From Gimesia aquarii (GTDB lineage Bacteria > Planctomycetota > Planctomycetia > Planctomycetales > Planctomycetaceae): 64,000 nucleotides of DNA. The position numbers and the translations under genes were made by a program. The notes under the pieces are model-generated. The model saw only the letters and a list, made by a program, of their open reading frames with translations, was not told the origin of the DNA and did no database searches. The stretch spans positions 5,348,334 to 5,412,333 of the forward strand of contig NZ_CP037422.1 in the NCBI RefSeq assembly GCF_007748175.1, in the 5' to 3' direction. This document shows positions 5,601 to 57,726 of the stretch, one piece after another; positions within the stretch are counted from its first letter, which is position 1; each line of letters begins with the position of its first letter.

Positions 5601-5614
5601 CGAATCTCTCTTTC

Positions 5615-34832: not shown

Positions 34833-35405
34833 ATGCAGGAAGTCACACAAATATTGAAAGCATTGGAAGCGGGTGATGTGGCTGCCACCGATCAACTGCT
34901 GCCGATTGTGTATGCGGAGTTGAGGAAACTGGCGGGGAATAAAATCTCTCAGGAAGCACCGGGGCAAACCCTGACGGCAACAGCGCTGGTGCATGAGGCC
35001 TATTTACGGTTGGTGGGGAAGGAAGAGGAGCCGCAGTGGGATCATCGGGGGCATTTCTTCGCGGCGGCTGCGGAATCGATGCGACGGATCCTCATCGAAA
35101 ACGCACGGCGCAAAAAAAGACTGAAACATGGTGGCGAACTGGATCGTGTCGAGCTTCCTGAGATTGCGGTGCCCGCTCAGAAACAGTTCGATGACCTGTT
35201 AGCACTGGATGACGCTTTGACTCAATTCGCCAAGGAAAGTCCAGAGAAAGCGGAGTTGGTGAAGCTGAGATACTTCGCTGGATTAAGTGAACAGGAAGCC
35301 GCGGAGGTATTGGGAATTTCCCGTGCGACGGCCGCTCGTCACTGGGCTTATTCTCGTGCCTGGTTATTTAGCCAGATTAATTCCGATTTAAATCAAACCA
35401 AATAA
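34833..35405 (+). CDS. ECF RNA polymerase sigma factor (kinase-linked type)
   Basis: The start is set at ATG 34833 (MQEVTQILKALEAGD), which matches the usual N-terminus of this group; an ATG five codons upstream at 34818 is an alternative. The 190-residue protein has region 2 with LLPIVYAELRKLAGNKI, TATALVHEAYLRLVG and HFFAAAAESMRRILIENARR. Region 4 shows ALTQFAKESPEKAELVKLRY, then FAGLSEQEAAEVLGISRATA and ARHWAYSRAWLF. This is the planctomycete ECF type typically encoded just before a Ser/Thr kinase, as here (161 bases before the kinase start). A kinase-controlled sigma factor is therefore likely, instead of anti-sigma control. It is more distant from the two other sigma factors of the window. 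Confidence 0.93.
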   Translation: MQEVTQILKALEAGDVAATDQLLPIVYAELRKLAGNKISQEAPGQTLTATALVHEAYLRLVGKEEEPQWDHRGHFFAAAAESMRRILIENARRKKRLKHGGELDRVELPEIAVPAQKQFDDLLALDDALTQFAKESPEKAELVKLRYFAGLSEQEAAEVLGISRATAARHWAYSRAWLFSQINSDLNQTK

Positions 35406-35565
35406 ACATAAGGACTTACAGATAATAAGGAGAACATGACGAAAACCAATCTTCGAAAAATTTTGTTTTATGGAAGAAACTATGAGGCGCGCCTGATGAC
35501 AAAATCGCATGGTTAAATAGTGAGGGAACAATGACTGTTCCGATGTAAAATATTTACCTGGTGGT

Positions 35566-40329: not shown

Positions 40330-42669
40330 TTAGAATGCGATGAGGTTCGAACTCTCTTTGAGGGATGTGAAGAACTCGTCTGTTTCAGAATCTGAAAGCG
40401 AGTCTTGTTCTTGGTATTCCTTTTCACTGAGTGTGAGCTCACGAATTTCAGAAGCTAACAACTCTTTCATAGTTCCTTCGTCTTTCTGACCGAGTTCGTA
40501 ATCAATGAAAGACCAGAGATCCGACTGGTTGGTTTCTTGATTGTCCTCAAATAACTCGATGAGTGATAATTGGCCTGGATGATTAAACTCATTATTAATT
40601 ATTGGAGTTATATCACTATTCCAAATAGTTCGAGTTGGAATCACATCAATATTAATCGGACCAGGTAAAGTGTCTGCTTCGGAATCGACGGCTTGAATAT
40701 CAAGGTTTTCAATTTCTTTATTTATGCCGGTGACGAATTTAAAATCAACCAGAGGAATTAGGGTTTGAAATTCGAACGCACCAATATCGACAGTTTCACC
40801 AAAGATCCGTTCATAACCAGTCCCACGTTGATCATTGGTTAGTTCTGCAGAAAGAGCAGCCTCATTATTACCGGCATTGATGGCAGCACTACCGGTGACT
40901 AATGCATGGGTTTTGGTTGGTCCCCCGTTGTCTCTAAGAACGGGGTCGAGTAACCCTTCTACGCTATCCTGAATGATACTGGTGTTGCTTGTGAAATTAC
41001 CGATAATCTGGAAGAACGATGCAGCCGTATTTCCTGCCACAATACTATTGGTGATGGTGGATATGGTGAATTCATTCCAGTCAGGAGGAGAAGCGATCCC
41101 ACCACCAGATTGTGCTGCTATATTTCCAGTGATAGTACTGTTTGTGATAATCAATGAACTTGGTCTGTCCAAAATAGATGTCAAATGGGTTGCTGATGTG
41201 TCAATTGCAGAAGCAGCAGTTCTGAATGAATAATTTGTGTTACCACGCAAGTTGCTGGGTTTTAAAGAATGAAACGTCGGTTCTATGTTCGTGTCTCTGT
41301 TCGTGTCTATTGCCCCGTTGATGAGTGATATCACATAGGAGTGTAATAAATACCCACCACTGTATTGGAAAATACCACCGCCTTTAATACCAGAGCGATT
41401 TCCTGAGACTGTGCTATTAATAAGTGAAAGATGACCTTGACTGCTGACTCCTCCTCCATAATATGTTGCTGTGTTATTTGTAAGGGTACTATTCATGATT
41501 GTAATGTTGCCAGAGGATGTCCTGATTCCTCCTCCTTCAGCAGCAGTATTTTCTAAAATTGTACTCTCCTCAATTATGAGATCACCGAGATTAAAGATTC
41601 CTCCCCCTACATCAGTTGCTGAGTTATTCTGGATTGAATTACCTCTTATTTCCATGAGGCCATCACTATTGAATATTCCTCCTCCGTTTTCCGCAGTGTT
41701 TCCTGAAAAAGTACTCTCGATGATTGAGAATCCCGTCTTTGGTGGTGTTTCAATCACATTTAGTCGAGTTACAATTGTGGCTGATGAAGAAACTACTGGC
41801 GTACCACACCAGTCGTGAAACTGTAAAGAATAAGCCTTGAAAATTCCACCACCAGAGTGAGCGGAGTTTTCGATGAAGTGACTGTTTGAAATACTAGTAA
41901 AGTTGTAAGTGGGTTCACTGGAATAGCGATAGACAGTTTTTGAGGGGTCGGCAAGATCCTGAATTGGTGTTACAACTGTATGATACAAGCCTGTGTGACC
42001 GAGCGTACCATACACACCTCCTCCATTCCCCGCAGCGACATTTCTGAAAAACGTCGTGCTAGAGATGGTCATATTCTGTACGTAATGGCCATGGCTCGAA
42101 TGATAGATCCCTCCACCGTTTTGAGTGGCTTCATTTTCTGCGATCATACTATTTGAAATGGAAAGGATTTCATTGTTGAAAATTGCGCCACCATTGTCTG
42201 CGTATCCATGAGTCAGTGTGAGTCCACTGATCTCAACAGAAATGGTCGAATACATGCTGCCATCATCGATATTAAAGATCCGACTATTATAATTCCCATC
42301 AATGGTGAGTTGATCTGCATCGAGTCCGATAATTGTCAGGTCATCAGAAATCAACAGTTCATCCGTGAGAACAATTGTCTGGCCGACGAGGCTTGGGAAA
42401 TCGAATTTAATAATGTCTGCGCCCGCGTTGGCATTGGCTTGTTCGATCGCTTCTCTGAGACTACCTTCTCCTGAATCGTTGGTATTCACAACTGTAAATG
42501 TTGTGAGCAAAGTACGGTCTTCTAATGATTCTGCGATATAATTAGAAAGCGAAGCATGTGAGACGCGGAAACTATGATGTCGAGAACATTTTCTCCTTGC
42601 TTGAATGCGTCTGGTAGAATTGGCCCTTAGCTTATTTGTTAAAGAAGTAAGCCAGTTGAATTGAAGCAT
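40330..42669 (-). CDS. Large surface protein: CSLREA-type parallel beta-helix with inactivated metzincin tail
   Basis: A 779-residue protein. The N-terminus is basic, without a classical signal peptide, and ends in LEDRTLLT (49-56), a motif found at the head of many planctomycete surface proteins. Next comes the adhesin-type start TFTVVNTNDSGEGSLREAI. Residues about 80-600 follow as right-handed parallel beta-helix repeats (SNSMIAENEATQNGGGIYHS, IMNSTLTNNTATYYGGGVSS, then ITGNIAAQSGGGIASP), with a choice-of-anchor-Q-like block (SIIQDSVEGLLDPVLRDNGG). The last 150 residues are homologous to the metzincin tail of its two neighbours. The zinc site HELGHLLGYEH is replaced by YELGQ plus a deletion of about 6 residues. 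Such proteins are exported and act as adhesins or matrix components. No dockerin part is present. Confidence 0.88.
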   Translation of the reverse strand: MLQFNWLTSLTNKLRANSTRRIQARRKCSRHHSFRVSHASLSNYIAESLEDRTLLTTFTVVNTNDSGEGSLREAIEQANANAGADIIKFDFPSLVGQTIVLTDELLISDDLTIIGLDADQLTIDGNYNSRIFNIDDGSMYSTISVEISGLTLTHGYADNGGAIFNNEILSISNSMIAENEATQNGGGIYHSSHGHYVQNMTISSTTFFRNVAAGNGGGVYGTLGHTGLYHTVVTPIQDLADPSKTVYRYSSEPTYNFTSISNSHFIENSAHSGGGIFKAYSLQFHDWCGTPVVSSSATIVTRLNVIETPPKTGFSIIESTFSGNTAENGGGIFNSDGLMEIRGNSIQNNSATDVGGGIFNLGDLIIEESTILENTAAEGGGIRTSSGNITIMNSTLTNNTATYYGGGVSSQGHLSLINSTVSGNRSGIKGGGIFQYSGGYLLHSYVISLINGAIDTNRDTNIEPTFHSLKPSNLRGNTNYSFRTAASAIDTSATHLTSILDRPSSLIITNSTITGNIAAQSGGGIASPPDWNEFTISTITNSIVAGNTAASFFQIIGNFTSNTSIIQDSVEGLLDPVLRDNGGPTKTHALVTGSAAINAGNNEAALSAELTNDQRGTGYERIFGETVDIGAFEFQTLIPLVDFKFVTGINKEIENLDIQAVDSEADTLPGPINIDVIPTRTIWNSDITPIINNEFNHPGQLSLIELFEDNQETNQSDLWSFIDYELGQKDEGTMKELLASEIRELTLSEKEYQEQDSLSDSETDEFFTSLKESSNLIAF

Positions 42670-42724
42670 CGTAGGAATATCCAGTTGTATGTCAGGTAGG
42701 TGAATATTTGAATTAATCTACGGG

Positions 42725-42756
42725 TGTTAATATTGAATAGGAACGAACTATTAACA
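42725..42756. promoter_or_regulatory. Inverted repeat upstream of the 779-residue surface protein gene
   Basis: An 8-bp inverted repeat (TGTTAATA at 42725-42732, TATTAACA at 42749-42756) with a 16-base spacer lies 56-87 bases upstream of the start at 42669. It could be an operator or 5'-leader hairpin. AT-rich 8-mers can pair by chance, so the role is unproven; similar repeats lie upstream of both neighbouring giant genes. Confidence 0.3.
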
Positions 42757-42881
42757 ACACTGATTCAAAGAATATCATTGATAATAAGAGAATAAAAGAA
42801 GTGATTTCAGGGAGAGAATAATGTTACTTAGTAGAAACTCCTGTAGGTAATAGTTGGAACTCTTGTGACGTTATGATCACC

Positions 42882-45800
42882 CTAAAACGGGACTAACGTT
42901 GTTTCATCCTTTATAGTCAAAAAGAACGAATCAGCTTCATCAGGCGTGGAATGCTCATCGAGGTCGATATACAATTCCCGGGATGGTAGATTACGAATAC
43001 CGGGAGCCAGGGTCTCTTGCATCACTCCTTCGTCTTCATGTTCGTATCCCAACAGATGACCGAGTTCGTGCATGATGACGGACCAAAGATCCACTCGTCC
43101 AGCGGCATCACTGTCGGGCAGGGCGATGAGTGATAACTGGCTTGATTGAACGAACTCACCATGGTCAGTTGGAGTAGCATCAACAAACCAGCCGTATCCA
43201 GCGGCGTTGACGTCGATATAAATTGTACCGGAAACGGCACGGCCCAAAGTATCGCCTTCCAAGTCAATGACCTGAATGTCGATGTCTTCGAGTGTCTCGT
43301 TTTGGCTGGTGGTAAGCTGAGGACTCACATATTCAACAACACCGTCCAATACTGAGTCGGCAGCAGACTGTGAAAGAGAAACTGGTGAGGTCTGTGGTTC
43401 AGCCTGAGACGTATCGGCAATCAGTAGATTGTTCCAGACATCAGGAAAATTCTGAGGATACACGATCGTAGATTGATTGGATTTCCGCTTGCCATAGTTA
43501 CTGGCAAACAAGATCAAATCTTTAAAGTTGACTCGATCACTTTGATTCAAGTCAGCAAACCAGGAATAATCTGAATTCGATTCGCTGGGTATCGTATTAT
43601 AGACACTGGCGAATAACATTAGATCTCGGAAATTGATTGGGTCGTCATCGTTTAAATCATAGGGGTTTGCGTAGATTTTTGTATTGGGTAAGGAGCCATG
43701 AACCTCTTCGCTGGGAGGACCTCCTACAAAAATGATCTCTGGCTGGCTGATCAAAAAATCTGGACTTTGCGGATTCAGGCTCTGACCTTCTAGGTCCAGG
43801 TCGACTGCATCGTCAGAGGTGGATTCAAACCTGATGCGGGCAAAGAGCACATGTTGATCATCACCCACATCAGTCAGGCTGGTCGCCGCTGACAGGTTTT
43901 CAATCGTTCCAGTCACGTCATTGATTGTTCCTGTTTGATTCAATGTGAATGAAGAACCATATTCAATGCTCGTGGCTGTGGTAATCGCGGTGTTGTAACT
44001 CAAATTGAGTGCAGTTGATAGAATTCCTAAATCGGTTGTAGAAGGCGTACTAATCCAGATTTCTAACCAGTACCCACTCCATTCATCTATCCAGGCCAGG
44101 TTGTCAGGAAGCGAACTCGACTCTCCATTACCCTGTGTGGATGTTTTTGAATTGACGATTCGCAAATCGACCTGGGTGAAAGGTGATTGAACTTCATATG
44201 CACCGATATCGATTGTGTCACCAATAATACGATTAAAACCTGTTCCCCGTTGATCATTGGTTAAACCAGCATCAGTAGCAGAATCATTAGTACCAGCATT
44301 AATTGCAGCGCTACCAGGCAACAAAGCGTGTGTTTTTGTTACTCCGCCGTTATCTTTTAATATGGGATCGAGTAAACCCTCGATGCTGTCCTGGATAATA
44401 CTGTTTGTATTGATGAAACTGCCAAAGTTATTCGAGCTAGCATTATTTGTCAAATTTCCAGCAACGATGCTATTACTGATATTATCACCAGGAGAAGACA
44501 GGCTATGAATTCCTGCTGCAAACTTAGCTGTGTTTCCTGTTAAAGTGCTACTTATGATATTTAAAGGTGATCCATATTGCGAGAAGATCGCACCACCATT
44601 TTTTGTTGCGATGTTACCAGAAAGTGTACTATTTCTAATGCTGACAGATCCATAATTGTTGTATATGCCACCGCCAAATCCATAACTGAATATGTCATCG
44701 CTTTCATCGATTGCACTATTTTCGGAAAGTGTGCTATTGATGATTAAAAGAACTCCACCCTCTGTGCTTCCAGATCTACCGTTGCTAATTCCACCACCAG
44801 AAATTGTTGCAAAATTATGAGTGAGCGAACTGTTTTTGACCGTAAGCGTAGTTCGGAAGTTTGAAATTCCTCCACCAGTTCTGCCTGCTGAATTAGCTTC
44901 GAATATGCTGTTAATTACCAACGCCTGTCCGTATTCAAAATAAATCCCTCCTCCTTCTCCGGTGACTCTATTTTCTGAAAAAGTGCTATTCATCACAGAC
45001 GCTGTGCCACTGTCTCCAAAATTAGATGTTCTATAGTAGATTCCTCCACCGTGAGATGCTCTATTATTTGAAAAAGTGCTGTCAGAGATAGTCATGCTTA
45101 AGTCGGTTGTGGATTCATCTGGAGGAAGAGAAGGATAAAGAGAATTATAGACTCCTGCCCCTCTTGAAGCTGTGTTTTCTGAGAACTTAGTATTATTTAC
45201 AGTGAATTTGCTGTCAAAGGTATGTATGCCACCACCTGACGATGAAACTTTATTCTCGAGAAAAAAACTATCTGTGATAGTTAGTGGTCCTGTTCTATGC
45301 TGAATTCCCCCACCGAAATCAGCTTCGTTTTTTGTAAACTTCGAACCTTCAATGTTTAACACTCCAGCACGGTGACTAATTCCGGCACCGCCAATCGCTT
45401 TGTTTTGTGAAAACGTACTATTGAAAATTGACAAGGTACTTTTGAGATCAAAAATACCACCTCCATCAGAGTTTTTTGCTTCATTCTCAGAAAATAGACT
45501 ATTTGTAACTGTTAGTGTTGTACTGTTATTAAAAATCGCTCCGCCAAAAGATTGTGCAAAATTTCGAAGGAAAGTCGTGTTGTCGATGGTAAGTGTATTG
45601 AGACTATAAATACCACCGCCACTTAAGTTCATGGCTGTATTATCCGTGATCATATTATCGATAATAGAAAGACTTTCTTTGCTAAAAATCGCTCCACCAT
45701 TTTGATCATAACCATTCTTCAGCGCAAGGCCGCTGATTTCGACATGAATAGTTGTGTCCGTGTTTCCATCATCCACTTTGAAGATGCGGCTATTATTGTT

Positions 45801-47918
45801 TCCACTAATTGTGAGTTGGTCTGCGCCGAGACCGATAATGGTCAGGTCATCGGAAATTACTAGCTCACTATCAAGAAGAATTGTCTGGTCAATAAGCGAA
45901 GTAGCAAAGGTAATTATTCCAGGCATTGAAGATGTATTTGCCAGTTTGATTGCTTCACGCAGTGACAATTGTCCGACTGAATAGTCACCATCGTCGAGAT
46001 CAGAATTGATATCAACAATAAAGTGCAATGAGCCATCTTCTAAGTATTCAAATGCTCCAATGTCAACGATGCCATCAACGACTCTTGGATAACCGCTTCC
46101 ACGTTGGTCTGTTGTAAGCCCCGCATTTGTAGATGCTAAATTGTTACCAGCATTGATGGCGGCACTGCCAGCTAACAGGGCATGCGTTTTTGTGGGGCCG
46201 CCATTATCTTTTAAGACGGGGTCGATTAAGCCTTCTATGCTGTTCTGGATGATGTTTGAATTGCCTGTAAAACCATTTTCGATTTGATTCCCTGATATGG
46301 TCGTATTGCCTGAGATAATACTGTTCTCGATCATTAACATGGGGTTGAGAACTAACGCATGGATCCCCCCCCATCCTTTTTCTGACTCATTTCCAACTAT
46401 TGTACTATTTATTACTGAGAATGGAGAACTAATGTCTGCCCATATCCCTGCTCCTTCTCTCGAACTTATATTGCCAGAAATAGTGCTGTTATTGATCGAT
46501 ACAGTATTAGACCGATCGCTATTGATTGCTCCACCATCATTGCTAGCAGAGTTTTGTGTAAATGTAGAGCTGGAAATGAACAGAGTGCCTTTGTTATTTA
46601 TCGCCCCACCATCGCTGCTAGCAGAATTATGGGCAAATGTAGAGTCGGAAATATACAGAGTCCCTCCACTATGGATCGCCCCACCGTCTCTGGAAGCATT
46701 CTTTGCAAATGTAGAATCGAAAATTGATAGAGTTCCACCACCGTGAGTGACCGCTCCACCATCGCTGCTAGCAGTGTTTTGGGTAAATGCAGAATCGTAA
46801 ATAGACAGAGTCCCTCCGCTAGCGATCGCACCACCAACGAAATCCGATTTATTTCGAACAAATGTACTATCATGAATAGTTAAGTTTCCTGAACTATTAT
46901 TAATTCCACCTCCGCCTACTTCTGCCTTATTATCGGAAAAGGAACTACTATTGACAGTCATATTACCATCCCGTATGTAAACAGCAGCTCCTGAAAGTCT
47001 GGAGTAATTGTCTGTGAACTGGCTGTTTTCAATTAAAACGTCTTCATTTTCTACATGAAATGAAAGAGATTTTTGGTGATAGATAGCCCCTCCTAAAGAA
47101 TTTAAAGCTTGATTGTTGGAAAAACTGCTTTCGAGAATGGTCATTGGACCACTTTGATTATAGATCGCTCCAGCTTTCTTGGCTTTGTTTGACTCAAAAG
47201 CCGAGTTCGCAACCAAAAGGCTGGATACCGCGTCGGAATAGATACCGCCACCAGAAGATGATGCCTCATTTCCTATGAATTCTGACTGGATTATAGTCAG
47301 AGTTGCATGATCCAGATTTCCATTATATTGATAGATTCCTCCACCAAATTTAGCCATGTTGCCTGTCAAGATGGTATTCTCGACAATTAATTTTTCATAA
47401 CTCAGAATGGCGCCACCATTATCGTTTGAAAAGACACCAGGATCACCAATTGAGTTTCCATTTGTTAATGTGAGATTTTTGATTTCGACCGAGATATATG
47501 TGGTAAAGCTAGCATCCCTGATATGAAAAATCCGACTATTGCCATTACCGTCAATGGTAAGTTGATCTTCACCGAGACCTGTGATGGTCAAGTCGTCTGT
47601 AATTTTAAGTTCATCCGTGAGAACAATGGACTGACCAGCGAGGTTGGCATCGAAGGTAATGGTGTCCGCGCCTGCGTTGGCATTGGCCAGCTCGATTGCT
47701 TCTCTGAGACTGCCCGTTCCGGAATCGTTCGTATTCACAACTGTGAATGCTGTTAATAGCGTACGATCTTCCAATGATTCTGTAACGAACCTGGAAATAG
47801 AAGCCTGTGCGAACAGGGCTTGGCTACTGCCGTTTTGTCTTCGACGTGTATTGCAGTTTTTGGAGTGATGGACGCGGAGCTTATCCTTCAATGAGGAAAG
47901 CCAATGGAATCGAAACAT
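42882..47918 (-). CDS. Giant surface protein: two CSLREA-type beta-helix modules, cohesin-like, dockerin-like and metzincin tail
   Basis: A 1678-residue protein. LEDRTLLT lies at 49-56 with basic residues before it. A first beta-helix module runs to about 640 (GTGSLREAIELANANAGADT, then GGGIYSDAVSSLLVANSAF and many GGAI/GGGI turns). A second starts near 645 (QLSLREAIKLANTSSMPG) and ends near 1240. Residues about 1246-1415 form a cohesin-like beta-sandwich (VDLRIVNSKTSTQGNGESSS, GYWLEIWISTPSTTDLGILS). Residues 1418-1485 hold two dockerin-like calcium loops (DLNDDDPINFRDLMLFA, DLNQSDRVNFKDLILFA). The last 160 residues are a matrixin-like protease domain with HELGHLLGYEH (1617-1627) and GVMQET as a Met-turn candidate. 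It shares its tail almost base for base with the 3211-residue neighbour. Probably exported and surface-bound. Confidence 0.9.
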   Translation of the reverse strand: MFRFHWLSSLKDKLRVHHSKNCNTRRRQNGSSQALFAQASISRFVTESLEDRTLLTAFTVVNTNDSGTGSLREAIELANANAGADTITFDANLAGQSIVLTDELKITDDLTITGLGEDQLTIDGNGNSRIFHIRDASFTTYISVEIKNLTLTNGNSIGDPGVFSNDNGGAILSYEKLIVENTILTGNMAKFGGGIYQYNGNLDHATLTIIQSEFIGNEASSSGGGIYSDAVSSLLVANSAFESNKAKKAGAIYNQSGPMTILESSFSNNQALNSLGGAIYHQKSLSFHVENEDVLIENSQFTDNYSRLSGAAVYIRDGNMTVNSSSFSDNKAEVGGGGINNSSGNLTIHDSTFVRNKSDFVGGAIASGGTLSIYDSAFTQNTASSDGGAVTHGGGTLSIFDSTFAKNASRDGGAIHSGGTLYISDSTFAHNSASSDGGAINNKGTLFISSSTFTQNSASNDGGAINSDRSNTVSINNSTISGNISSREGAGIWADISSPFSVINSTIVGNESEKGWGGIHALVLNPMLMIENSIISGNTTISGNQIENGFTGNSNIIQNSIEGLIDPVLKDNGGPTKTHALLAGSAAINAGNNLASTNAGLTTDQRGSGYPRVVDGIVDIGAFEYLEDGSLHFIVDINSDLDDGDYSVGQLSLREAIKLANTSSMPGIITFATSLIDQTILLDSELVISDDLTIIGLGADQLTISGNNNSRIFKVDDGNTDTTIHVEISGLALKNGYDQNGGAIFSKESLSIIDNMITDNTAMNLSGGGIYSLNTLTIDNTTFLRNFAQSFGGAIFNNSTTLTVTNSLFSENEAKNSDGGGIFDLKSTLSIFNSTFSQNKAIGGAGISHRAGVLNIEGSKFTKNEADFGGGIQHRTGPLTITDSFFLENKVSSSGGGIHTFDSKFTVNNTKFSENTASRGAGVYNSLYPSLPPDESTTDLSMTISDSTFSNNRASHGGGIYYRTSNFGDSGTASVMNSTFSENRVTGEGGGIYFEYGQALVINSIFEANSAGRTGGGISNFRTTLTVKNSSLTHNFATISGGGISNGRSGSTEGGVLLIINSTLSENSAIDESDDIFSYGFGGGIYNNYGSVSIRNSTLSGNIATKNGGAIFSQYGSPLNIISSTLTGNTAKFAAGIHSLSSPGDNISNSIVAGNLTNNASSNNFGSFINTNSIIQDSIEGLLDPILKDNGGVTKTHALLPGSAAINAGTNDSATDAGLTNDQRGTGFNRIIGDTIDIGAYEVQSPFTQVDLRIVNSKTSTQGNGESSSLPDNLAWIDEWSGYWLEIWISTPSTTDLGILSTALNLSYNTAITTATSIEYGSSFTLNQTGTINDVTGTIENLSAATSLTDVGDDQHVLFARIRFESTSDDAVDLDLEGQSLNPQSPDFLISQPEIIFVGGPPSEEVHGSLPNTKIYANPYDLNDDDPINFRDLMLFASVYNTIPSESNSDYSWFADLNQSDRVNFKDLILFASNYGKRKSNQSTIVYPQNFPDVWNNLLIADTSQAEPQTSPVSLSQSAADSVLDGVVEYVSPQLTTSQNETLEDIDIQVIDLEGDTLGRAVSGTIYIDVNAAGYGWFVDATPTDHGEFVQSSQLSLIALPDSDAAGRVDLWSVIMHELGHLLGYEHEDEGVMQETLAPGIRNLPSRELYIDLDEHSTPDEADSFFLTIKDETTLVPF

Positions 47919-47969
47919 ATGAAAAAATCCGGATGGGGATTAGGTAGGCGACATTTAAATTGGGTCAGG

Positions 47970-47993
47970 TTATGCTTGTGTATACTAGCATAA
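47970..47993. promoter_or_regulatory. Inverted repeat upstream of the 1678-residue surface protein gene
   Basis: A 7-bp inverted repeat (TTATGCT at 47970-47976, AGCATAA at 47987-47993) with a 10-base spacer lies 52-75 bases upstream of the start at 47918. Its sequence differs from the repeats upstream of the two neighbouring giant genes but its place is the same. Operator or leader hairpin is possible; chance is not excluded. Confidence 0.3.
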
Positions 47994-48090
47994 GAGGAAA
48001 CAAATACAATGAATGTTTCATTAAGAATGCTCATGAATAGAGAGCATTAACTAAGAAGTAGGTATCTGACCTTATTGTAATCATACCTCT

Positions 48091-51000
48091 TTAAAACGGC
48101 ACTAATTCTGTTTCATTTTGTATAGTCAAAAAGAATGAATCCGCTTCTTCAGGCGTGGAATGCTCATCGAGGTCGATATGCAATTCCCAGGATGGTAGGT
48201 TGCGAATACCGGGAGCCAGGGTCTCTTGCATCACTCCTTCAGATTCATGATCATAGCCCAAAAGATGGCCGAGTTCATGCAAGATGACGGACCAGAGATC
48301 CACTCGTCCAGCGGCATCACTGTCGGGCAGGGCAATGAGTGATAACTGGCTTGATTGATCGAACTCACCATGATCACCAGGTGTGTCATCAATAAACCAG
48401 CCATATCCGGCGGCATTAACATCGATATAAATTGTACCGGTAACGGCGCGACCTAATGTGTTCCCCGTAAGGTCAACGATTTCAATGTTGATATTTTCCA
48501 GTGTTTCGTTTTGGCTTGGAGTAAGCTGAGGACTCACATATTCAACAACACCGTCTAATACTGAGTTGGCAGCAGACTGTGAAAGAGGAACTGGTGAGGT
48601 TTGCGGTTCAGCCTGAGACGTATCGGCAATCAATGGATTGTTCCAGGCTTCAGGGAAATTCTGGGGATAGGCAATCGCCGTTTGACCAAGCTTACTTTTG
48701 TTGTAGTTGCTCGCAAACAAACTGAGGTCTTTAAAATCGACGCTATTATTTTGATTATAGTCGGCAAACCAGGAAAGGTCTGAAGCAGACTCGCTGGGGA
48801 TGGTCTGATAAACACTGGCGAACAGCATCAGATCTTTAAAATTGATTGCGTCATCATCGTCGAGATCAAAGGGGTTTGCCCAGATATTGGCACCATCAAA
48901 ATCTACTAAGTTCGTGGTGACTGGAATATTGCCATCCAAATGGACTTGCTGCGAATTGATATTGAAACCGAGGTCATAAGGACCGATGCTTCTTCCGGGA
49001 AGATCGAGTTCGACTTGGTCTCCAGCAAGGGGTTCAAATTTGATACGAGCAAACAGAAGATGGCCTGCAATTCCTAGGTCAGATGCATTTGTTTCGGCGA
49101 ACAGACCTTCTACTGTTCCCAAAGCATCGTTAATTGTTCCTGCCTGATTTTGAGAGAAACCTGCACCAAATTCGATATCAGTTGCTGATGTAAATTCTGT
49201 AAGATAATAGAGATCTAGTCCTACAGAGAAAATTCCCTGATTGGTTGGACTGCTGGCATTGATCCAAATTTCGACCCAGTAAGAAGACCATTCGGTAATG
49301 GAATCCTGATTGTCTGGAAGTAAATTGACTTCTCCGTTTGCTTGTGTATTCGTAGGTGAGTCGACAACACGCAAATCAATATTTGCTGAGGCAATAATAT
49401 TATCGACAATTGTGACTTCTGCCTGATTATCTGCAAATGAAACGTTGCGGCCATTGGTTTGAAGATTCGTTAAATTAACAAGAAACGATTCATCAGTTTC
49501 AAACAGAAAGGAATCGATGATCGAAATCATAATCGTTTTCGATTGTTCTCCTGGAGAGAAGCTGATCGTGCCAGACATAGCCACATAGTCTTCCAGGTCA
49601 ATAGCAGTTTGATCTGTCGTAGCAAAATCAACGCTGACAGTTGTATCAACTGGCGAGTCCAGAGATACAGTCAACGTTGCGAAACCCGCATCTTCGTCGA
49701 CAGAGATGTCGTCAATTGATAATCGGGATTGATCATCATCAAAGATCGTGACTTCGGCCTGGTCGTCTATGAGTGTGACATCGGTGCCATTTGTTTGAAG
49801 ATTGCTTAAATTGACGAAAAAGACTTCACTCAGTTCTACCAAGTCAGTATTTACAATGGGAATTGTGATCGTTTTGGATTGCTCTCCCGGAGTGAAGGTC
49901 AAGGTATCTGATTGAGCAATATAGTCTTCAGTACCTGTGGCTGTCAGGTCAACCGTGTCAAAATCGACTGTAATGATTGCTTCAACTGGTTGATCCAATG
50001 AGACAATCAAGTCGACTGTACCTGTTTCTTCATTTACAAAAACGTCATTGATAGACATGGTAGTCTGATCATCATCTATGATGGTAACCTCTGACTGATC
50101 GTCGGCAAAAGTGACAGCAAGTCCGTTAGCTTGAATATTCGAGAGATTGATTTGAAATGATTCTTCCAACTCCACAGCATCAGTATCAATAATGGGAACG
50201 GTAATTGTTTGTGGTTGTTCTCCCAGAGTGAAAATTAAAGTACCTGTGTGGTGGAGATAATCTGTAGGATTTGTTGCTGAATTATCAACGGTGGCAAAAT
50301 CGACGGTGACGGTCGTGTCCACTGGTTGGTCCAACGACACAAGTACGGTTGCAGTTCCCGCGTCTTCATTGACGGTAATATCAGTAATCGAAAATGTAGA
50401 CTGGTCATCATCAACGATAGTGACTTCGGCCTGATCGTCTGCAAGAATGACATCGGAACTACTGGTTTGTAAATTACTGAGAGTCACAAAAAATGTTTCA
50501 TCAAATTCGACTGCTGCATTGTCCAGGATCGTGATGGTTATGGTTTTCGATTGCTCTCCCGGATTAAATGTTAAACTGTCTGATTGGAATAGATAATCAA
50601 TTGAATTTAATGCTGACTGATCTTCAGTAATAAAATCGATGTTAATTGTTGTGTTAACAGGATTGTCTAAAGAGACGGTGAGAACTGCTGTTCCATCCAT
50701 TTCGTCAATCGAGATGTCATTAATTGTTAAATTTGACTGATCGTCATCGAGAATAGCGACTTCACCCTGATCATCGGCAAAGATGATATTGGCCCCATTA
50801 GCTTGAATATTAGTCAGGTCGACAAGAAATGTTTCTGTGAATTCCACAAGAGCAGTGTCAATGATATCAATAACGATCTCTTGTGACTGCTCTCCCGGAT
50901 TGAAGGTGAGCGTCCCTGACTGGGCGGTATAGTCATCGGGATCGACGGCGAGTTGATCTGCGGTGGCAAAGTCGACGGTGACGGTCGTGGCGACGGGTTG

Positions 51001-54000
51001 ATCCAGGGTGACCGTGAGCGTGGCAGTACCGTCAAATTCGTTAACGGTGACATCATCGATGGCGATGGTGGCTTGTTCGTCATCGAGAATGGTGACTTCG
51101 CCTTGATCATCGGCAAAGGTGATGTTGGCGCCACTGGTCTGAATATTGGTGAGATTGACGAGGAACGTTTCAATACCCTCAACAATATTATTGTCAATGA
51201 TGTCCACAACGATGGTCTGGGATTGCACACCCGGATTGAAAGTGAGAGTTCCCGTTTGAGCAATGTAGTCATCGGGATCAAGGGCCAATTGATCTGCGGT
51301 GTCAAAGTCCACAGTGACCGTCGTCTGGACTGGTTGATCTAATGAGACAGTCAGGTTGGCCGTACCGTCATTTTCATTAACGGTAACATCGTCGATGGAG
51401 ATAGTGGTCGCTTCGTCATCGAGAATGGTGACTTCACCCTGATCGTCGACAAAGGTGATGTTGGCACCATTGGCCTGGATGTTGGTGAGGTTGACGAGGA
51501 ACGTTTCAACGCCTTCCACGATATCGATGTCATCAATGATGTCTACGATAATGGTGAGTGATTGTTCTCCCGGATTGAAGGTCAGGGTGCCGGTCTGCGC
51601 GGTATAGTCGTCGGGATCGAGGGCCAATTGATCTGCGGTGGCAAAGTCGACGGTGACGGTCGTGGCGACCGGTTGATCGAGTGAGACAGTCAGGGTGGCG
51701 GTGCCGTCAGTTTCGTTAACGGTGACATCGTCGATGGCGATGGTGGCTGTTTCGTCATCGAGAATGGTGACTTCTGCCTGATCGTCGGCAAAGGTAATAT
51801 TGGCGCCATTAGCCTGGATATTGGTGAGGTTGACGAGGAACGTTTCGATGCCTTCCACAATGTCCAGATCATCAATGATATCGACGATGATGGAATGGGA
51901 TTGCTCTCCCGGATTGAAGGTGAGGGTGTTTGATTGGGTGGTATAGTCGTCGGGATCGATGGCGAGTTGATCTGCCGTGGCAAAATCGACAGTGACAGTG
52001 GTGGCCACTGGTTGATCCAGGGTGACCGTGAGTGTCACAGTCCCGCTAGCGACATCTTCATCTACCGTCATGTCATCAATGGAGATCGTGGCGGTTTCAT
52101 CATCGAGAATGGTGACTTCGCCCTGATCGTCGGCAAAGGTGATGTTGGCGCCATTCGCTTGAATGTTGGCGAGGTCGACAAAAAAGGATTCAATACCTTC
52201 GACGATGTCCAGATCATCGGTGATGTCGAGCGTGATGGTGAGTTCCTGCGCTCCCGGGGCGAAAGTCAAGGTGTCATTTTGGGCGACGTAATCAGTGGTA
52301 CTTTCTGCTGAACCATCGGCAGTGGTAAAGTCGACGGTAACGGTGGTGGCGACGGGTTGATCCAGGGAGACCGTGAGTGTGACTGTTCCACCTGCGACAT
52401 TTTCATCCACAGTCATATCATCAATGGAGATCGTGGCGGTTTCATCATCGAGAATGGTGACTTCACCCTGGTCGTCGGCAAAGGTGATGTTCGCGCCATT
52501 CGCTTGAATGTTGGCGAGGTCGACAAAAAAGGATTCAATACCTTCGACGATGTCCAGATCATCGGTGATGTCGAGCGTGATGGTGAGTTCCTGCGCTCCC
52601 GGGGCGAAAGTCAAGGTGTCATTTTGGGCGACGTAATCAGTGGTACTTTCTGCTGAACCATCGGCAGTGGTAAAGTCGACGGTGACAGTGGTGGCGACGG
52701 GTTGATCCAGGGAGACCGTGAGTGTGACTGTTCCACCCGCGACATTTTCATCCACTGTCATATCATCAATGGAGATCGTGGCGGTTTCATCATCGACAAT
52801 CGTGATCGTAGCCTGATCATCTCCGATGGTTACAGCAGCTCCATTGGGCTGAAGGTTTAACAGATTCACCAGAAACGTTTCATCAGCTTCAACAATATCT
52901 AGGTCATTGTTAAGCGGAATGATAATGGTTTGTGATAGTACTTCTGGGTTGAAGGTCAGGGTACCTGTTTGAGAAGTATAGTCGTCAGGATCGAGGGCCG
53001 AACCAGGTGTGGTGAAATAGTCAACGCTCACCATGGTGTCGACCGGATTATCCAAAGAAACGGTAACGGAAACGGTTCCCGCATCTTCATTCACAATAGT
53101 ATCTTGAATCGAGACACTGGCTTGATCGTTATCTCGAATCAGAATAGTTCCCTGGCTATCTGAAAAATTGACATTCACAGCATTTTGAATATTGCTCAGG
53201 CTAACAAGTAATGATTCATCATCTTCGACAAGATTATCATCTGTGATGTCAATAATTATGGTTTTCATCAAATCACCTGAGGCGAAGTCCAGAGTACCAG
53301 TTTGAGTGGTAAAATCATTAGGACTGACTGCAGTTAGGCTGAACGTGGTAAAGTCCACGCTGATGTCAGTGTCGACTTCCAGATTGAGGGAAACGGTCAG
53401 GGTAGCGGTTCCAACATCTTCATCTACTGACATATTATCAATTGAGAAGCTGGCCTGTTCATTATCCAGAATAGTAACTTCTGCCTGATCATCTGCGAAA
53501 ATAACATTTGTTCCATTGGATTGGATGTTGAATAGGTTTATGAGAAATGTCTCGTCCCCTTCCACAATCATATTGTCGATAATGGAAACTATGATCTGTT
53601 GTGATTGTTCGCCTGGAAGGAAGGTCAGAGTGCCAGTGTTTGAGGCATAGTCAGATGTGTCAAATGCGGTCTGATCTGCCGTGGCGTACTCCACAGTCAC
53701 GGTAGTTTCGACTGGTTTATCCAGAGAGACATCAATTAGTGCTGTTACACCATCTTCATTAATGGAGATGTCATTGATGGAGAAAGTGGCTTGGTCATCG
53801 TCCAGAATAGTGACGGTGGCTTGAGGATTCCCCATGAATGCATCAAAACCATTTGTTTGCAAGTTACTCAAGTTCACCTGAAATGTTCTGTCCCCCTCCA
53901 CAAGATCGTTATCGATCAGGGGGACGACGATGGTTTGTTCTTGTACCTCAGGATCAAAAGTCAGGGTACCTATATGGGTCGTGTAATCAGTAGAGGCAAT

Positions 54001-57000
54001 TGCTGATAAATCAGACGTGGAAAAGTCGACAGTGACAGTTGTGTCGACTGGTTGATCTAACGAAACTGTAAGAGTGGCTGTGCCATTATCTTCATCTACT
54101 GAAAGATCATCGATTGAGAGATTGGCTTGGTCATTATCTTCAATCGTGACTATTGCCTGATCATCTCCAATTATAATGTCGAGTAAATTTGCAGAAAGAT
54201 TACGCAAGTTTACGAGAAAAGTTTCGTCATTTTCCACGAGATTGTCATCGGTGAGAGGGATAGTAAATGTCTTTGATTGTTCCTCTGGATCAAAAGTCAG
54301 GAGCCGTGATAAAGACTCATAGTCATGGGATGCTTCAGCCGATTGATCTGCTGTTACATAGCCTATACTGATGACGTTAACAACCCTCTTGTCCAGAGAG
54401 ATCGTGAGCGTTGCTACTCCCGCGGCTTCATCTACGGACACATCATCGATAGAAAAACTGGCTTGATCATTGTCCCAGATCCTGGCTCTGCCTGTGTCAT
54501 CTGCAAACGTTATATTAGCTCCATTTGCTTGTATATTGGAAAGGATGACAGAAAAGAATTCAGGATATTCGACCAGATCCGTATCATCAATGAGCGGGAC
54601 AATGATTGTGTTTGTTCTTTGATTAGGTGCGAAGTTCAATGTACCAGATGTTGATACATAGTCTGAGGAACTGTATGCAGTCAAAAGGTCTGGAGGAATA
54701 GTTTCAACGAGATCGTTTGTGGCATAATCCACACTCACATTTGTTGCGACTTCTTTATCTAGAAGAACTGTAAATGTAACTGTTCCATCATCTTCATTCA
54801 CGATTCTGTCATTAATGGAAAACGTTGCTTCTTCATCATCAAGGATGGTGACAGTTCCCTGATTAATTCCAATAATCACATCGAGACCATTGGCTTGAAG
54901 ATTGGTCAGGTTGACGGTAAACGATTCATCGCCTTCTACAATGTCTACATCATTTATAATTGGAATAGTGATGGATTGTGCTTGGCTGTCTGGAGTTCCT
55001 GGAGTGAAAGTCAAAGTGCCAGACACCATCGAATAGTCGAACCCATTAAGTGCTGTAAGATCGGCTGTGGAATAATCCACGCTGATGGCTGCAGAGATTT
55101 CTTTATCCAGAGATACGGTGAGGGTCGCAGTCCCCATATCTTCATCAATAGATATGTCATTGATTGAGAGGCTCGCCTGATCGTCATTTAGAATGGTAAC
55201 TATTCCCTGGGAATCACTTATCACCACGTCAGCACCATTCGCTTGAAGGTTTGTCAGGTTGACGAAAAATGATTCATCGTTTTCCACAAGGTCATCAACC
55301 ATAATGGGGATATCGATAGTTTTTGAAGCCTCTTCTGCGGCGAAAGTCAGAGTGCCGGATGTTGAGGCGTAGTCGCTTGGATCGATAGCAGAATCAGCAG
55401 TGGTGGAGTAGTCAATACTGACAATTCTGTCGACCAGTTTATTCAGAGAGACCGTGATGGTTGCTGTTCCCAAGTCTTCATTCACGGAGACATCATCTAT
55501 CGAGAAATTGGACTGATCGTCATCCTGAATCGTGATCTCACCCTGTGGATCAGCAAACGTGATATTTGCGCCATTAGCAAGAATGGTTGTAAGGTTCACC
55601 AGAAGTGTTTCAGCGTCTTCAACAAGATCATCATTGGTGATGGGGATGTCAATCTCTAACAATTCCTGTCCCGTAGAAAATGTCAGGGTATCTGTTAGAA
55701 AAGAATAGTCATTAGGATTGACTGCTGTCTGATCTTCAGTTGTAAAATCAAAGCTCACGTCAGTTTCGACTGGGATGTCTAAACTAACTGCGAGAGTTGC
55801 CATCCCATCTCCTTCGTTTACAGTGACATCGTTGATCGAGATTGTGGCTTCTTCATTATCCTCAATGACGATGATTCCCTGGCTTTTTACAATGGTCACA
55901 TCAGCTCCATTGTCTTGCAGGTTCATTAGGTCGACGGCAAACGTTTCATCACCTTCCACCAGATCTGTATCATCGATAAGGGGAACCATGATGGTTGCCG
56001 ACAGCTGTCCTTTAGAGAAATTCAGAGTGCCAGATATCATCGTGTAGTCGGAAGTATTCAATGCGGACAAATCGTTCGTCGTGTACTCTACACTGATAGC
56101 CGTGTCTACAGGTCTATCAAGTGAGACTGTCAATATAGCCATCCCACTGATTTCATCTTCGGACACAGTGACATCGTCGATTGTTATATGAGCCTGCTGA
56201 TCATCTTGAATTGTGACTTCCGCCTGAGTGTTGTCAAAAACCACATCGCGACCACTGGCCTGAATATTGGTCAGGTTAACAAGAAACGATTCATCGAGTT
56301 CGACCAGTTCTGAATCGACAATAGAAACTGGGATCTCGATGGATTGTACTCCCGGTGTAAATGTCAGTGTACCAGAAGTCGCAAGATAGTCAGTAATATC
56401 TTCTGCCGAATTATCGCTGGTGGCAAAGTCAACACTGACATTAGTGTCAACGGGGTGATCTAGTGAGACCGTGAGTATGGCTGTTCCCGCATTTTCATCC
56501 ACAGTAATATCACTGATTGAAATTTGGGCTTGATCATCATTGAGAATCGTCACAGTTGCCTGATCGTCTCCCATAATCACATCAGCATCATTATTTTGAA
56601 GATTCGTCAGGTTAACCAGAAATGTTTCGTCACCTTCCACGAGATTGTCATCACTGAGGGGGACGATGATGGTTTGTGATTGTACTCCCGGGTTGAAGAT
56701 CAGAGTACCTGTCTGTGTAGTATAGTCATTAGTAGCAAGGGCTGACTGTTCGGCAGTGGCAAAATCCACACTGATAGCGGTATCGACTGGATGATTCAGT
56801 GAAACAGTAAGCATTGCCGTGCCGTCATTTTCATTCACGGAAATGTCATCAATCGAAACACTGGCTTGGTCGTCATCCAGGATTCTGACTTTCGCCAGAG
56901 TATCTGAAACAATCAGGTTGGTACTCGTGGTTTGGATATTAGAAAGATTGACTAAAAATGTTTCTGTACTTTCCACTAAATTCGAATCGACGATAGGAAC

Positions 57001-57726
57001 GGAAATCGTTTTTGATAGTTCACCTGGAGCAAAGCTCATGGAGCCAGATGAAGCAAGATAGTCATCGTTATTATTTGCGGTTTCATCAAAGATCGAAAAA
57101 TCAAAACTGACTTCGGCATCAATAGGGTTATCGAGAGAAACAACAACAGATGCCGTTCCATCGGCTTCATTCACGGTAATGTCATTGATCGAGAGAGTAG
57201 ATTGGTCGTCATTAAGAATTGTGACTGTTGCCTGACTATTATCGAGAGTTGTCCCCAAACTGTTATTGAGCAAATGGACCTCGAATGTTTCGTCTTCTTC
57301 ACTTACGACATCACCATTAACCTGAATTGTAATTGTTTGCGTTTGTAAAGTACCCGATGGATCTGCCGAAAAGTTAAGTATGTTTCCTTGTGATTGATAA
57401 TCGGCATCTACTGTTGTTGCCGTACCATCTGCAGTTGTGAATTCAACAGATGCAATACTATTGAGATCTCCTGCAGTTCCACCAGTTCGACTAACCGTGA
57501 GTACGACATTTGTAGTGCCAGTATCACCCTCGGAAACTGACACATCATCGATACTCAACAGTGATGTTAAGAGTGTGCGATCTTCGAGTGGTTCAATAGC
57601 ATGAGCACGATAGCTTTGTACCGACTGATGTCGACTCGTCGAGCGGGACCGTTGATTGTGTATTACGCGAGGGCGCGATGATTGACATTTCGAGGCAATT
57701 GACCTTAACCAGTTCGTCAACAACAT
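48091..57726 (-). CDS. Giant surface protein with 24 Calx-beta repeats, cohesin-like, dockerin-like and metzincin tail
   Basis: The 3211-residue protein starts with a basic stretch and LEDRTLLT (47-54). From 57 to about 2750 I count 24 consecutive Calx-beta repeats of about 110-115 residues, each opening with S-I-x-D-x-x-V-x-E and closing with VTI-x-D-D-x (example SIDDITVDEN through VTILDDDQA). This fold binds calcium and is used in adhesins. Repeats 15 and 16 are identical over 115 residues. A cohesin-like sandwich follows (about 2780-2940, NIDLRVVDSPTNTQANGEVN). Then come two dockerin-like loops (about 2952-3012, DLDDDDAINFKDLMLFA and DYNQNNSVDFKDLSLFA), and a matrixin-like tail with HELGHLLGYDH at 3150-3160 and GVMQET after it. 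No classical signal peptide is visible; export may use a planctomycete-specific route. It is probably surface-exposed and calcium-stabilised. Confidence 0.92.
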   Translation of the reverse strand: MLLTNWLRSIASKCQSSRPRVIHNQRSRSTSRHQSVQSYRAHAIEPLEDRTLLTSLLSIDDVSVSEGDTGTTNVVLTVSRTGGTAGDLNSIASVEFTTADGTATTVDADYQSQGNILNFSADPSGTLQTQTITIQVNGDVVSEEDETFEVHLLNNSLGTTLDNSQATVTILNDDQSTLSINDITVNEADGTASVVVSLDNPIDAEVSFDFSIFDETANNNDDYLASSGSMSFAPGELSKTISVPIVDSNLVESTETFLVNLSNIQTTSTNLIVSDTLAKVRILDDDQASVSIDDISVNENDGTAMLTVSLNHPVDTAISVDFATAEQSALATNDYTTQTGTLIFNPGVQSQTIIVPLSDDNLVEGDETFLVNLTNLQNNDADVIMGDDQATVTILNDDQAQISISDITVDENAGTAILTVSLDHPVDTNVSVDFATSDNSAEDITDYLATSGTLTFTPGVQSIEIPVSIVDSELVELDESFLVNLTNIQASGRDVVFDNTQAEVTIQDDQQAHITIDDVTVSEDEISGMAILTVSLDRPVDTAISVEYTTNDLSALNTSDYTMISGTLNFSKGQLSATIMVPLIDDTDLVEGDETFAVDLMNLQDNGADVTIVKSQGIIVIEDNEEATISINDVTVNEGDGMATLAVSLDIPVETDVSFDFTTEDQTAVNPNDYSFLTDTLTFSTGQELLEIDIPITNDDLVEDAETLLVNLTTILANGANITFADPQGEITIQDDDQSNFSIDDVSVNEDLGTATITVSLNKLVDRIVSIDYSTTADSAIDPSDYASTSGTLTFAAEEASKTIDIPIMVDDLVENDESFFVNLTNLQANGADVVISDSQGIVTILNDDQASLSINDISIDEDMGTATLTVSLDKEISAAISVDYSTADLTALNGFDYSMVSGTLTFTPGTPDSQAQSITIPIINDVDIVEGDESFTVNLTNLQANGLDVIIGINQGTVTILDDEEATFSINDRIVNEDDGTVTFTVLLDKEVATNVSVDYATNDLVETIPPDLLTAYSSSDYVSTSGTLNFAPNQRTNTIIVPLIDDTDLVEYPEFFSVILSNIQANGANITFADDTGRARIWDNDQASFSIDDVSVDEAAGVATLTISLDKRVVNVISIGYVTADQSAEASHDYESLSRLLTFDPEEQSKTFTIPLTDDNLVENDETFLVNLRNLSANLLDIIIGDDQAIVTIEDNDQANLSIDDLSVDEDNGTATLTVSLDQPVDTTVTVDFSTSDLSAIASTDYTTHIGTLTFDPEVQEQTIVVPLIDNDLVEGDRTFQVNLSNLQTNGFDAFMGNPQATVTILDDDQATFSINDISINEDGVTALIDVSLDKPVETTVTVEYATADQTAFDTSDYASNTGTLTFLPGEQSQQIIVSIIDNMIVEGDETFLINLFNIQSNGTNVIFADDQAEVTILDNEQASFSIDNMSVDEDVGTATLTVSLNLEVDTDISVDFTTFSLTAVSPNDFTTQTGTLDFASGDLMKTIIIDITDDNLVEDDESLLVSLSNIQNAVNVNFSDSQGTILIRDNDQASVSIQDTIVNEDAGTVSVTVSLDNPVDTMVSVDYFTTPGSALDPDDYTSQTGTLTFNPEVLSQTIIIPLNNDLDIVEADETFLVNLLNLQPNGAAVTIGDDQATITIVDDETATISIDDMTVDENVAGGTVTLTVSLDQPVATTVTVDFTTADGSAESTTDYVAQNDTLTFAPGAQELTITLDITDDLDIVEGIESFFVDLANIQANGANITFADDQGEVTILDDETATISIDDMTVDENVAGGTVTLTVSLDQPVATTVTVDFTTADGSAESTTDYVAQNDTLTFAPGAQELTITLDITDDLDIVEGIESFFVDLANIQANGANITFADDQGEVTILDDETATISIDDMTVDEDVASGTVTLTVTLDQPVATTVTVDFATADQLAIDPDDYTTQSNTLTFNPGEQSHSIIVDIIDDLDIVEGIETFLVNLTNIQANGANITFADDQAEVTILDDETATIAIDDVTVNETDGTATLTVSLDQPVATTVTVDFATADQLALDPDDYTAQTGTLTFNPGEQSLTIIVDIIDDIDIVEGVETFLVNLTNIQANGANITFVDDQGEVTILDDEATTISIDDVTVNENDGTANLTVSLDQPVQTTVTVDFDTADQLALDPDDYIAQTGTLTFNPGVQSQTIVVDIIDNNIVEGIETFLVNLTNIQTSGANITFADDQGEVTILDDEQATIAIDDVTVNEFDGTATLTVTLDQPVATTVTVDFATADQLAVDPDDYTAQSGTLTFNPGEQSQEIVIDIIDTALVEFTETFLVDLTNIQANGANIIFADDQGEVAILDDDQSNLTINDISIDEMDGTAVLTVSLDNPVNTTINIDFITEDQSALNSIDYLFQSDSLTFNPGEQSKTITITILDNAAVEFDETFFVTLSNLQTSSSDVILADDQAEVTIVDDDQSTFSITDITVNEDAGTATVLVSLDQPVDTTVTVDFATVDNSATNPTDYLHHTGTLIFTLGEQPQTITVPIIDTDAVELEESFQINLSNIQANGLAVTFADDQSEVTIIDDDQTTMSINDVFVNEETGTVDLIVSLDQPVEAIITVDFDTVDLTATGTEDYIAQSDTLTFTPGEQSKTITIPIVNTDLVELSEVFFVNLSNLQTNGTDVTLIDDQAEVTIFDDDQSRLSIDDISVDEDAGFATLTVSLDSPVDTTVSVDFATTDQTAIDLEDYVAMSGTISFSPGEQSKTIMISIIDSFLFETDESFLVNLTNLQTNGRNVSFADNQAEVTIVDNIIASANIDLRVVDSPTNTQANGEVNLLPDNQDSITEWSSYWVEIWINASSPTNQGIFSVGLDLYYLTEFTSATDIEFGAGFSQNQAGTINDALGTVEGLFAETNASDLGIAGHLLFARIKFEPLAGDQVELDLPGRSIGPYDLGFNINSQQVHLDGNIPVTTNLVDFDGANIWANPFDLDDDDAINFKDLMLFASVYQTIPSESASDLSWFADYNQNNSVDFKDLSLFASNYNKSKLGQTAIAYPQNFPEAWNNPLIADTSQAEPQTSPVPLSQSAANSVLDGVVEYVSPQLTPSQNETLENINIEIVDLTGNTLGRAVTGTIYIDVNAAGYGWFIDDTPGDHGEFDQSSQLSLIALPDSDAAGRVDLWSVILHELGHLLGYDHESEGVMQETLAPGIRNLPSWELHIDLDEHSTPEEADSFFLTIQNETELVPF
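52076..52765 (-). repeat. Two near-identical 345-bp tandem copies (Calx-beta repeats 15 and 16)
   Basis: The block starting TCAATGGAGATCGTGGCGGT at 52076 recurs at 52421, and its opening recurs at 52766, giving a period of exactly 345 bases (115 codons). The two complete copies differ at only a few, apparently synonymous, positions, and the encoded repeats are identical. The duplication is therefore recent and in frame. Neighbouring repeats 17 to 20 are also unusually alike. Confidence 0.9.

Follow-up and report, generated by a model that had tools for sequence, protein, structure and literature searches.

The window, a stretch of 64,000 nucleotides from the Gimesia aquarii genome (a single contig of 7,218,541 bases), contains three minus-strand open reading frames (ORFs) in a row, of 779, 1678 and 3211 residues, here called P1, P2 and P3 (Table 1). 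The initial annotation had described them as giant proteins with the same head, unrelated middles and a common tail of roughly 150 residues, bearing a metzincin site in two of them. The three ORFs were borne out, as was the LEDRTLLT head in each of them, with LEDRTLL beginning at residues 49, 49 and 47. The sequence HELGHLLGY is indeed present in P2 and P3 only.

Table 1. Features of the P1-P3 locus (coordinates within the window).
Feature	Position	Strand	Description and basis
P1, 779 aa	40330..42669	-	ORF; head, PMP-type beta-helix passenger and degenerate tail; Pfam Chlam_PMP 3.4e-11
P1 LEDRTLL head motif	42505..42525	-	starts at aa 49; degenerate-pattern search
P1 passenger	40768..42504	-	homologous to P2 passenger, BLASTP E 2e-91
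P1 tail remnant, 145 aa	40333..40767	-	without HExxH; terminal D-x-F-F kept
P2, 1678 aa	42882..47918	-	ORF
P2 LEDRTLL head motif	47754..47774	-	starts at aa 49; degenerate-pattern search
P2 passenger	44175..47753	-	PMP-type repeats and choice-of-anchor-Q stretches
P2 cohesin-fold domain and dockerin-like EF-hand pair	43464..44174	-	alignment to P3; profile
P2 matrixin-like peptidase domain and terminal peptide, 167 aa	42885..43385	-	profile
P2 zinc site HELGHLLGYEH	43038..43070	-	HELGHLLGY at aa 1617
P3, 3211 aa	48091..57726	-	ORF
P3 LEDRTLL head motif	57568..57588	-	starts at aa 47; degenerate-pattern search
P3 passenger, 24 Calx-beta stretches	49393..57564	-	Pfam Calx-beta 1370 bits
P3 cohesin-fold domain (model residues 1-173)	48874..49392	-	model pLDDT 86.8; cohesin Z 13.4
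P3 dockerin-like EF-hand pair	48667..48873	-	profile match to cellulosomal dockerins; exchanged tract of paralogues begins here
P3 matrixin-like peptidase domain and terminal peptide, 166 aa	48094..48591	-	profile; model; MMP match
P3 zinc site HELGHLLGYDH	48247..48279	-	HELGHLLGY at aa 3150
P3 terminal D-x-F-F peptide, last 19 aa	48094..48150	-	predicted disordered yet conserved

The extent of the shared parts had to be redrawn. The tail of P1 is homologous to that of P2 (37% identity over 153 residues, E = 4e-22), but the end common to P2 and P3 comprises about 430 residues (68% identity) rather than about 150. Of this C-terminal block P1 retains just the final ~145 residues; most of it, the zinc site included, has been lost. 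Regarding the middles, hereafter called passengers, that of P3 is unrelated to the other two, with nothing significant found between them (best E 2.5 and 0.50). The passengers of P1 and P2, on the other hand, are homologous (42% identity over 596 residues, E = 2e-91) and both carry PMP-type repeats and choice-of-anchor-Q stretches.

Some further features of the locus can be added. The Calx-beta region of P3 contains five to six nearly alike tandem repeats of ~339-345 bp each (window 50741-52805), which suggests a recent repeat expansion, and the P3 ortholog of the sister genome is longer (3653 versus 3219 residues, stop to stop). The opposite strand immediately downstream of P1 (window 34818-39504) carries an ECF sigma factor gene and then a gene for a 1312-residue protein with a protein kinase domain. 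A promoter scan gave 42 matches against 44.5 expected.

In P2 and P3 the C-terminal block is arranged in the order cohesin-fold domain, dockerin-like EF-hand pair, matrixin-like zinc-peptidase domain and terminal D-x-F-F peptide. A model of the 433-residue block of P3 (62 sequences) reached a mean pLDDT of 86.8, with most of the last 30 residues below 50. Residues 1-173 of the model matched cohesins with a Z of 13.4 (2vo8, rmsd 2.4, 132 residues aligned), cohesins leading the rows, and Foldseek returned matches for this domain from 1.3e-6. Pfam Cohesin scored 23.3 bits in a paralogue, below its cut-off of 24.1. A match to the CLIPPER domain (9ifr, Foldseek E 1.2e-3), described in the accessible part of PMC12617251 as an isopeptide-bonded domain and no protease, was dropped because cohesins score better. 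In the case of the EF-hand pair, profiles matched cellulosomal dockerins at 2e-4 and calmodulins next at 6e-4, and Pfam Dockerin_1 scored 16.7 bits on P2 against a cut-off of 22.9. Since calmodulins match nearly as well, the label ‘dockerin’ leans on the position beside the cohesin.

The peptidase domain was also modelled alone (88 sequences, pLDDT 84.4). All 50 rows listed by VIA-align were matrix metalloproteinases (MMPs) or karilysin, the MMPs with a Z of 8.7 (rmsd 3.2, 108 residues aligned). The predicted structure thus corresponds to the matrixin fold, at a Z only just above the level of common arrangements; none of the 110 matches that Foldseek listed for this model reached E <= 0.001. 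By sequence, the best solved relative was karilysin (4e-5). Because Pfam Peptidase_M10 scored 19.2 bits on P2 and 21.0 bits on P3, below its curated 24 bits, we call the domain ‘matrixin-like’ and do not file it as a Pfam M10 member.

Conservation within the genus can be described at the residue level. Among 66 aligned genus tails, the zinc-site H, E and H are each kept in 64, the third His in 60 and the downstream Met in 62. At the very end, all 66 have the Asp and the second Phe, though this stretch is predicted to be disordered; such a conserved disordered terminus looks like a short terminal signal, a role that we infer. Between the source genome and its sister genome (G048), tail dN/dS ranged from 0.08 to 0.23 in all five ortholog pairs with HExxH, and the intact tails are by this measure under purifying selection. 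A sixth pair, reading HDLKH, gave a tail dN/dS of 1.7 at a dS of 0.009; this would fit a loss of constraint after loss of the site, though the changes are too few to carry much weight. Judging from these patterns, the C-terminal block probably bears an active metalloprotease.

To what extent head and tail belong together was assessed over the whole source genome. A fully degenerate pattern for LEDRTLL gave 15 matches in the 7.22 Mb and none for the reversed control; the head is not due to chance. With the 188-residue P3 tail as query, 14 places were found at E <= 1, and 11 with the cohesin-dockerin part. In fetched stretches of the genome, 13 ORFs of 779-5738 residues carried the tail by profile, and all 13 have LEDR[TQ][LM]L starting at residue 37-79. 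Four of these head-and-tail genes form a second cluster at 6,792,062-6,814,424. The head also occurs without the tail: in at least two ORFs by profile (in L030 and L038), and in a 10,383-residue ORF whose end, judged by eye, has no tail (L036 with L149; genome 2986263-3017414). The head is consequently more widespread than the tail in the source genome. A fourth further head-bearing ORF (L037) is partly masked and counts on neither side. A tail fragment of 106 residues without a head lies elsewhere in the genome. A tail-like ending of an ORF beside the 4714-residue paralogue was dropped; the whole ORF begins like a lipoprotein. One tail-bearing paralogue (L030:5043-9818) has a cyclophilin-type prolyl isomerase domain after the head (Pfam 6e-17).

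The survey was then extended to the phylum. The tail matched at E <= 1e-5 in 24 of 392 Planctomycetota genomes: nine belong to the genus, and the remaining 15 have no more than two matches apiece. The nearest named relatives of the tail, among the best 80 of 261 loci, were mostly Gimesia contigs. The genus sample comprises 67 of 69 matches from eight other genomes together with the source genome's own loci, the matches being the best per genome (at most nine candidates scored in each). Left out were two ORFs of 7860 and 7863 residues, one ORF cut by a contig end (L218) and four loci whose last 150 residues equal another locus of the same genome. Two of these duplicates have the head (L167, L212) and two have none (L210, 934 residues; L213, 221 residues). 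There remained 76 complete tail ORFs, 71 of which have at least 500 residues (646-6120, stop to stop).

Within the first 220 residues, 65 of these 71 large ORFs carry LE[DE]Rx[LM]L, a pattern absent beyond residue 220 from all 169,445 residues; with the three left-out duplicates of more than 500 residues added, the count becomes 67/74. Two of the other six read LENR and LEAR, and four look 5'-broken (L161, L205, L207, L208). In the eight other genus genomes the head pattern was found at 8-15 places each, while the reversed control matched once, in one genome. At the other end, the tail domain finishes within 20 residues of the C-terminus in 66 of 71, more than 200 residues following in the other five. 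D..[FYL]F is found in the last 30 residues of 68 ORFs, compared to 180 of 3500 random passenger windows. Four ORFs have lost HExxH, namely P1, the final gene in the second cluster and an ortholog pair (L029/L157), while the other 67 have it intact; a vestigial peptidase would fit these four and not the rest. By profile search, cohesin and dockerin stand side by side in 64 of 71 and are both absent in seven, P1 among them, never one alone; this supersedes a cruder dockerin expression that had found 49/71. The tails sit on several passenger classes, which are rough, being assigned from one repeat profile and a motif count; the ‘PMP-like’ proteins of the type in L030 also hold a cyclophilin domain.

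Two other layouts can be set aside here. Only five of the 76 complete tail ORFs fall below 500 residues, and these (72-169 residues) look like fragments, which rules out a stand-alone secreted protease in the genus. A polymorphic-toxin layout, with a constant front and a variable end, is ruled out as well, both ends being constant and the middle varying. The description of constant ends around variable middles extends beyond the window, to the 65 of 71 large tail-bearing ORFs of nine genomes that have the head.

The head itself is short. The consensus of 65 heads reads E-x-L-E-D-R-T-L-L-T; the first E, L, E, R and the last L never vary, and the preceding 46 residues form a basic stretch with a median net charge of +9. 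None of the 65 has a Sec-type hydrophobic core in a crude test (the largest 12-residue Kyte-Doolittle mean was 1.40, none reaching 1.6), nor the Tat-like motif RRxFL. As far as can be judged from composition, the head is unlike a Sec signal. The exact letters are a genus-level trait, because E-x-LEDR-x-LL matched 17 and 13 times in two genus genomes with none in the reversed control, while in 117 genomes outside the genus its 30 matches lay below the ~45 of the reversed control; it was accordingly rejected as a phylum-wide motif. Some heads of other lineages read LEPR, LEAR or LENR. The NCBIfam LEPR-XLL model (NF012209, cut-off 17 bits) did not match the heads of P2, P3 and the 4714-residue paralogue, and matched two of three heads tested from relatives in other taxa whose proteins likewise have this peptidase domain (L052 and L116, 24.2 and 31.2 bits).

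The DNA of the C-terminal block gives insight into how it spreads. Over its final 757 and 749 nt, a Calx-beta gene of the second cluster matches two PMP-type genes with 20 and 19 mismatches. These tracts start at the dockerin, and the cohesin DNA upstream is about 50% alike; blocks of ~750 nt are thus ~97% identical between genes with unrelated middles. The same step in identity is seen more weakly between P3 and P2 (343 nt, 41 mismatches) and is repeated in the sister genome. In seven pairs from the same genome, tail identity is 80% or more and cohesin identity below 70%, and five of these pairs join different passenger classes; Calx-beta and PMP-type genes have nearly identical ends and cohesins that are 41-46% alike. 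In another genome (G167), the ends of four dispersed loci agree at 93-98% over stretches of 712-1470 nt in each of the six pairwise comparisons. A 2549-residue protein of the sister genome, beside the P3 ortholog (L156), has a P2-like end with a zinc site but the last block of P1, which would fit a crossover between neighbours. Altogether, these alignments demonstrate recombination of the C-terminal block between genes. Since such ends are shared across unlike genes, dockerin, peptidase and terminus behave as one exchangeable unit, and the cohesin does not go along.

Relatives in other phyla were examined among the best 80 of 261 loci, of which 29 ORF records were 5'-complete with at least 500 residues. 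A loose LExR head lies within the first 260 residues of 20 of the 29, and elsewhere in such ORFs the pattern occurs 4 times in 136,183 residues. Omitting six Gimesia-like head-bearing records and two records of one headless Gimesia ORF, peptidase domain and LExR head stand on one chain in 14 of 21, seven having no head. The 14 come from Planctomycetota, Alpha-, Beta- and Gammaproteobacteria, Desulfuromonadales and Verrucomicrobiales. Of the 82 ORFs in L039-L118, 81 have HExxH. The peptidase domain does not require a C-terminal position, for in other phyla it is frequently located nearer the N-terminus, as at residues 273-435 in L107. An end peptide resembling D..FF is found in several other planctomycetes, and proteobacterial C-termini look different. 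As a separate observation, six proteobacterial proteins (L059, L073, L078, L094, L095, L102) show a recurring C-terminal W..[RDH]F/Y... and then NPNA or the like. In another planctomycete genus, three genomes retain the tail domain but read HELISHQDE or HELLGDGDE at the HExxH position (L133, L134, L135).

We tentatively prefer, at slightly less than an even chance, to regard P1-P3 as members of a multigene family of giant modular exported proteins. In this reading the head, a basic stretch followed by E-x-L-E-D-R-T-L-L-T, would be a targeting signal that is not Sec-like, and the passenger, be it PMP-type beta-helix repeats, Calx-beta or other domains, would be the displayed part. The cohesin-fold domain and the dockerin may join chains together or pair within one chain. 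The matrixin-like zinc endopeptidase would most likely mature or trim giant surface proteins after export, on its own chain or on those of its neighbours, and the terminal D-x-F-F peptide could serve in sorting or export. As the part from the dockerin to the end moves between genes by recombination, new passengers would gain a working end. In favour of this reading are the frequencies of head, zinc site, terminal peptide and cohesin-dockerin pair in the 71 ORFs, the low dN/dS, the exchanged ends, the basic heads and the pairing of peptidase and LExR head beyond the genus. Against it stand the heads without a tail, the four ORFs that persist without HExxH, the seven headless proteins outside Gimesia, the sub-cut-off M10 scores, the Foldseek result for the peptidase and the N-terminal placement of the domain elsewhere. 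The display or export cassette proposed in the initial annotation is supported in part, through its constant ends, variable middles and exchanged end block; the tail may process or anchor the passenger.

The main rival is that the giants are scaffolds or adhesins which hold a matrixin-like peptidase outside the cell for the digestion of environmental protein. There would be no self-processing, and cohesin-dockerin contacts would join several giants, as in the ‘planctosome’, a hypothetical cohesin-dockerin-peptidase complex proposed for freshwater planctomycetes in the passages available from PMC6461901. The intact HExxH and the purifying selection favour a working peptidase and say nothing on its substrate, and the matrixin-like fold with karilysin as best solved relative and the cohesin-dockerin pair in 64/71 would suit digestion too. 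Digestion alone, however, leaves unexplained the C-terminal fusion beside a conserved terminal peptide and the pairing with the head, also across phyla, and we consider this rival unlikely, if a serious contender.

Plain tandem duplication would explain head and tail through paralogy only, with no need of a cassette function. The tandem clusters with homogenised ends and the paralogous passengers of P1 and P2 are what it would lead one to expect, but near-identical ends link Calx-beta with PMP-type genes despite their dissimilar cohesins and recur at dispersed loci, and tails sit on several passenger classes, all of which makes it rather improbable as the full explanation. About as improbable is a broader reading of the export itself, in which E-x-L-E-[DP]-R-x-L-L-[ST] heads would mark an undescribed export route in Planctomycetota, Verrucomicrobiota and Pseudomonadota, with the matrixin-like domain as its dedicated maturation protease. 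The protease would cut the head or free the passenger, in cis or in trans, for which reason the domain could be placed close to one end or the other and a cluster's last gene could do without its zinc site. Finally, that the tail only sorts or anchors through its terminal peptide and binding domains, with a purely structural peptidase fold, is very unlikely: the four ORFs that lack HExxH do keep D-x-F-F, yet the site is intact in 67/71 and 81/82, third His and Met are conserved alongside it and selection is purifying.

Each part of the preferred architecture is already known. The LEPR-XLL domain (NF012209, LEPR-8K) likewise is a short N-terminal LExRxLL motif, but the source-genome heads read LEDRTLLT and not LEPRxLLS. 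An N-terminal LEPR-XLL domain is mentioned for a Vibrio protein of ~8000 residues in an excerpt of PMC10868602, and among open-licence PubMed Central papers the term ‘LEPR-XLL’ turned up in two, a single passing mention in either. The planctosome, as far as the excerpts of PMC6461901 describe it, also combines cohesin and dockerin modules with zinc peptidases in planctomycetes; its modules lie on separate proteins with 26-residue signal peptides and its peptidases are of the M12B and M14 types, whereas P2- and P3-type proteins have cohesin, dockerin and matrixin-like peptidase on one chain behind a non-Sec-like head. With matrixins (karilysin, MMPs; Peptidase_M10) the tail shares HExxHxxGxxH and the downstream Met (Z 8.7 to MMP-11, 8.6 to karilysin), but it scores below the Pfam cut-off, forms part of giant proteins and has a D-x-F-F peptide at its terminus. 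Compared to cellulosomal modules, the cohesin fold is alike and the EF-hand pair has a profile match to dockerins; here, however, cohesin and dockerin are neighbours on one chain, identity to solved cohesins is 9-15% in most rows, and no cellulase context was seen.

Giant genes are a noted planctomycete trait: in the part of the Fuerstia paper available (PMC5177795), very large genes are called common in planctomycetes, and roles in adhesion or the outer membrane are suggested for the largest of one strain. That part mentions no shared head and tail, and the main text contains no occurrence of metalloprotease, Calx, cadherin or signal peptide. In open-licence PubMed Central papers we found no description of the head-tail pairing, which is weak evidence of absence, nor of a single-chain cohesin-dockerin-matrixin end with D-x-F-F, its exchange between passengers or its pairing with LExRxLL heads across phyla. 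The excerpts found do not state the export route of such giant proteins. With a head that has no hydrophobic core and one recombining, peptidase-bearing end, the export and maturation of these giants could be approached by experiment through two short sequences, the LEDR motif and HExxH. Should the pairing with LEPRxLL heads in other phyla prove functional, the same would apply to many large surface proteins elsewhere among bacteria.
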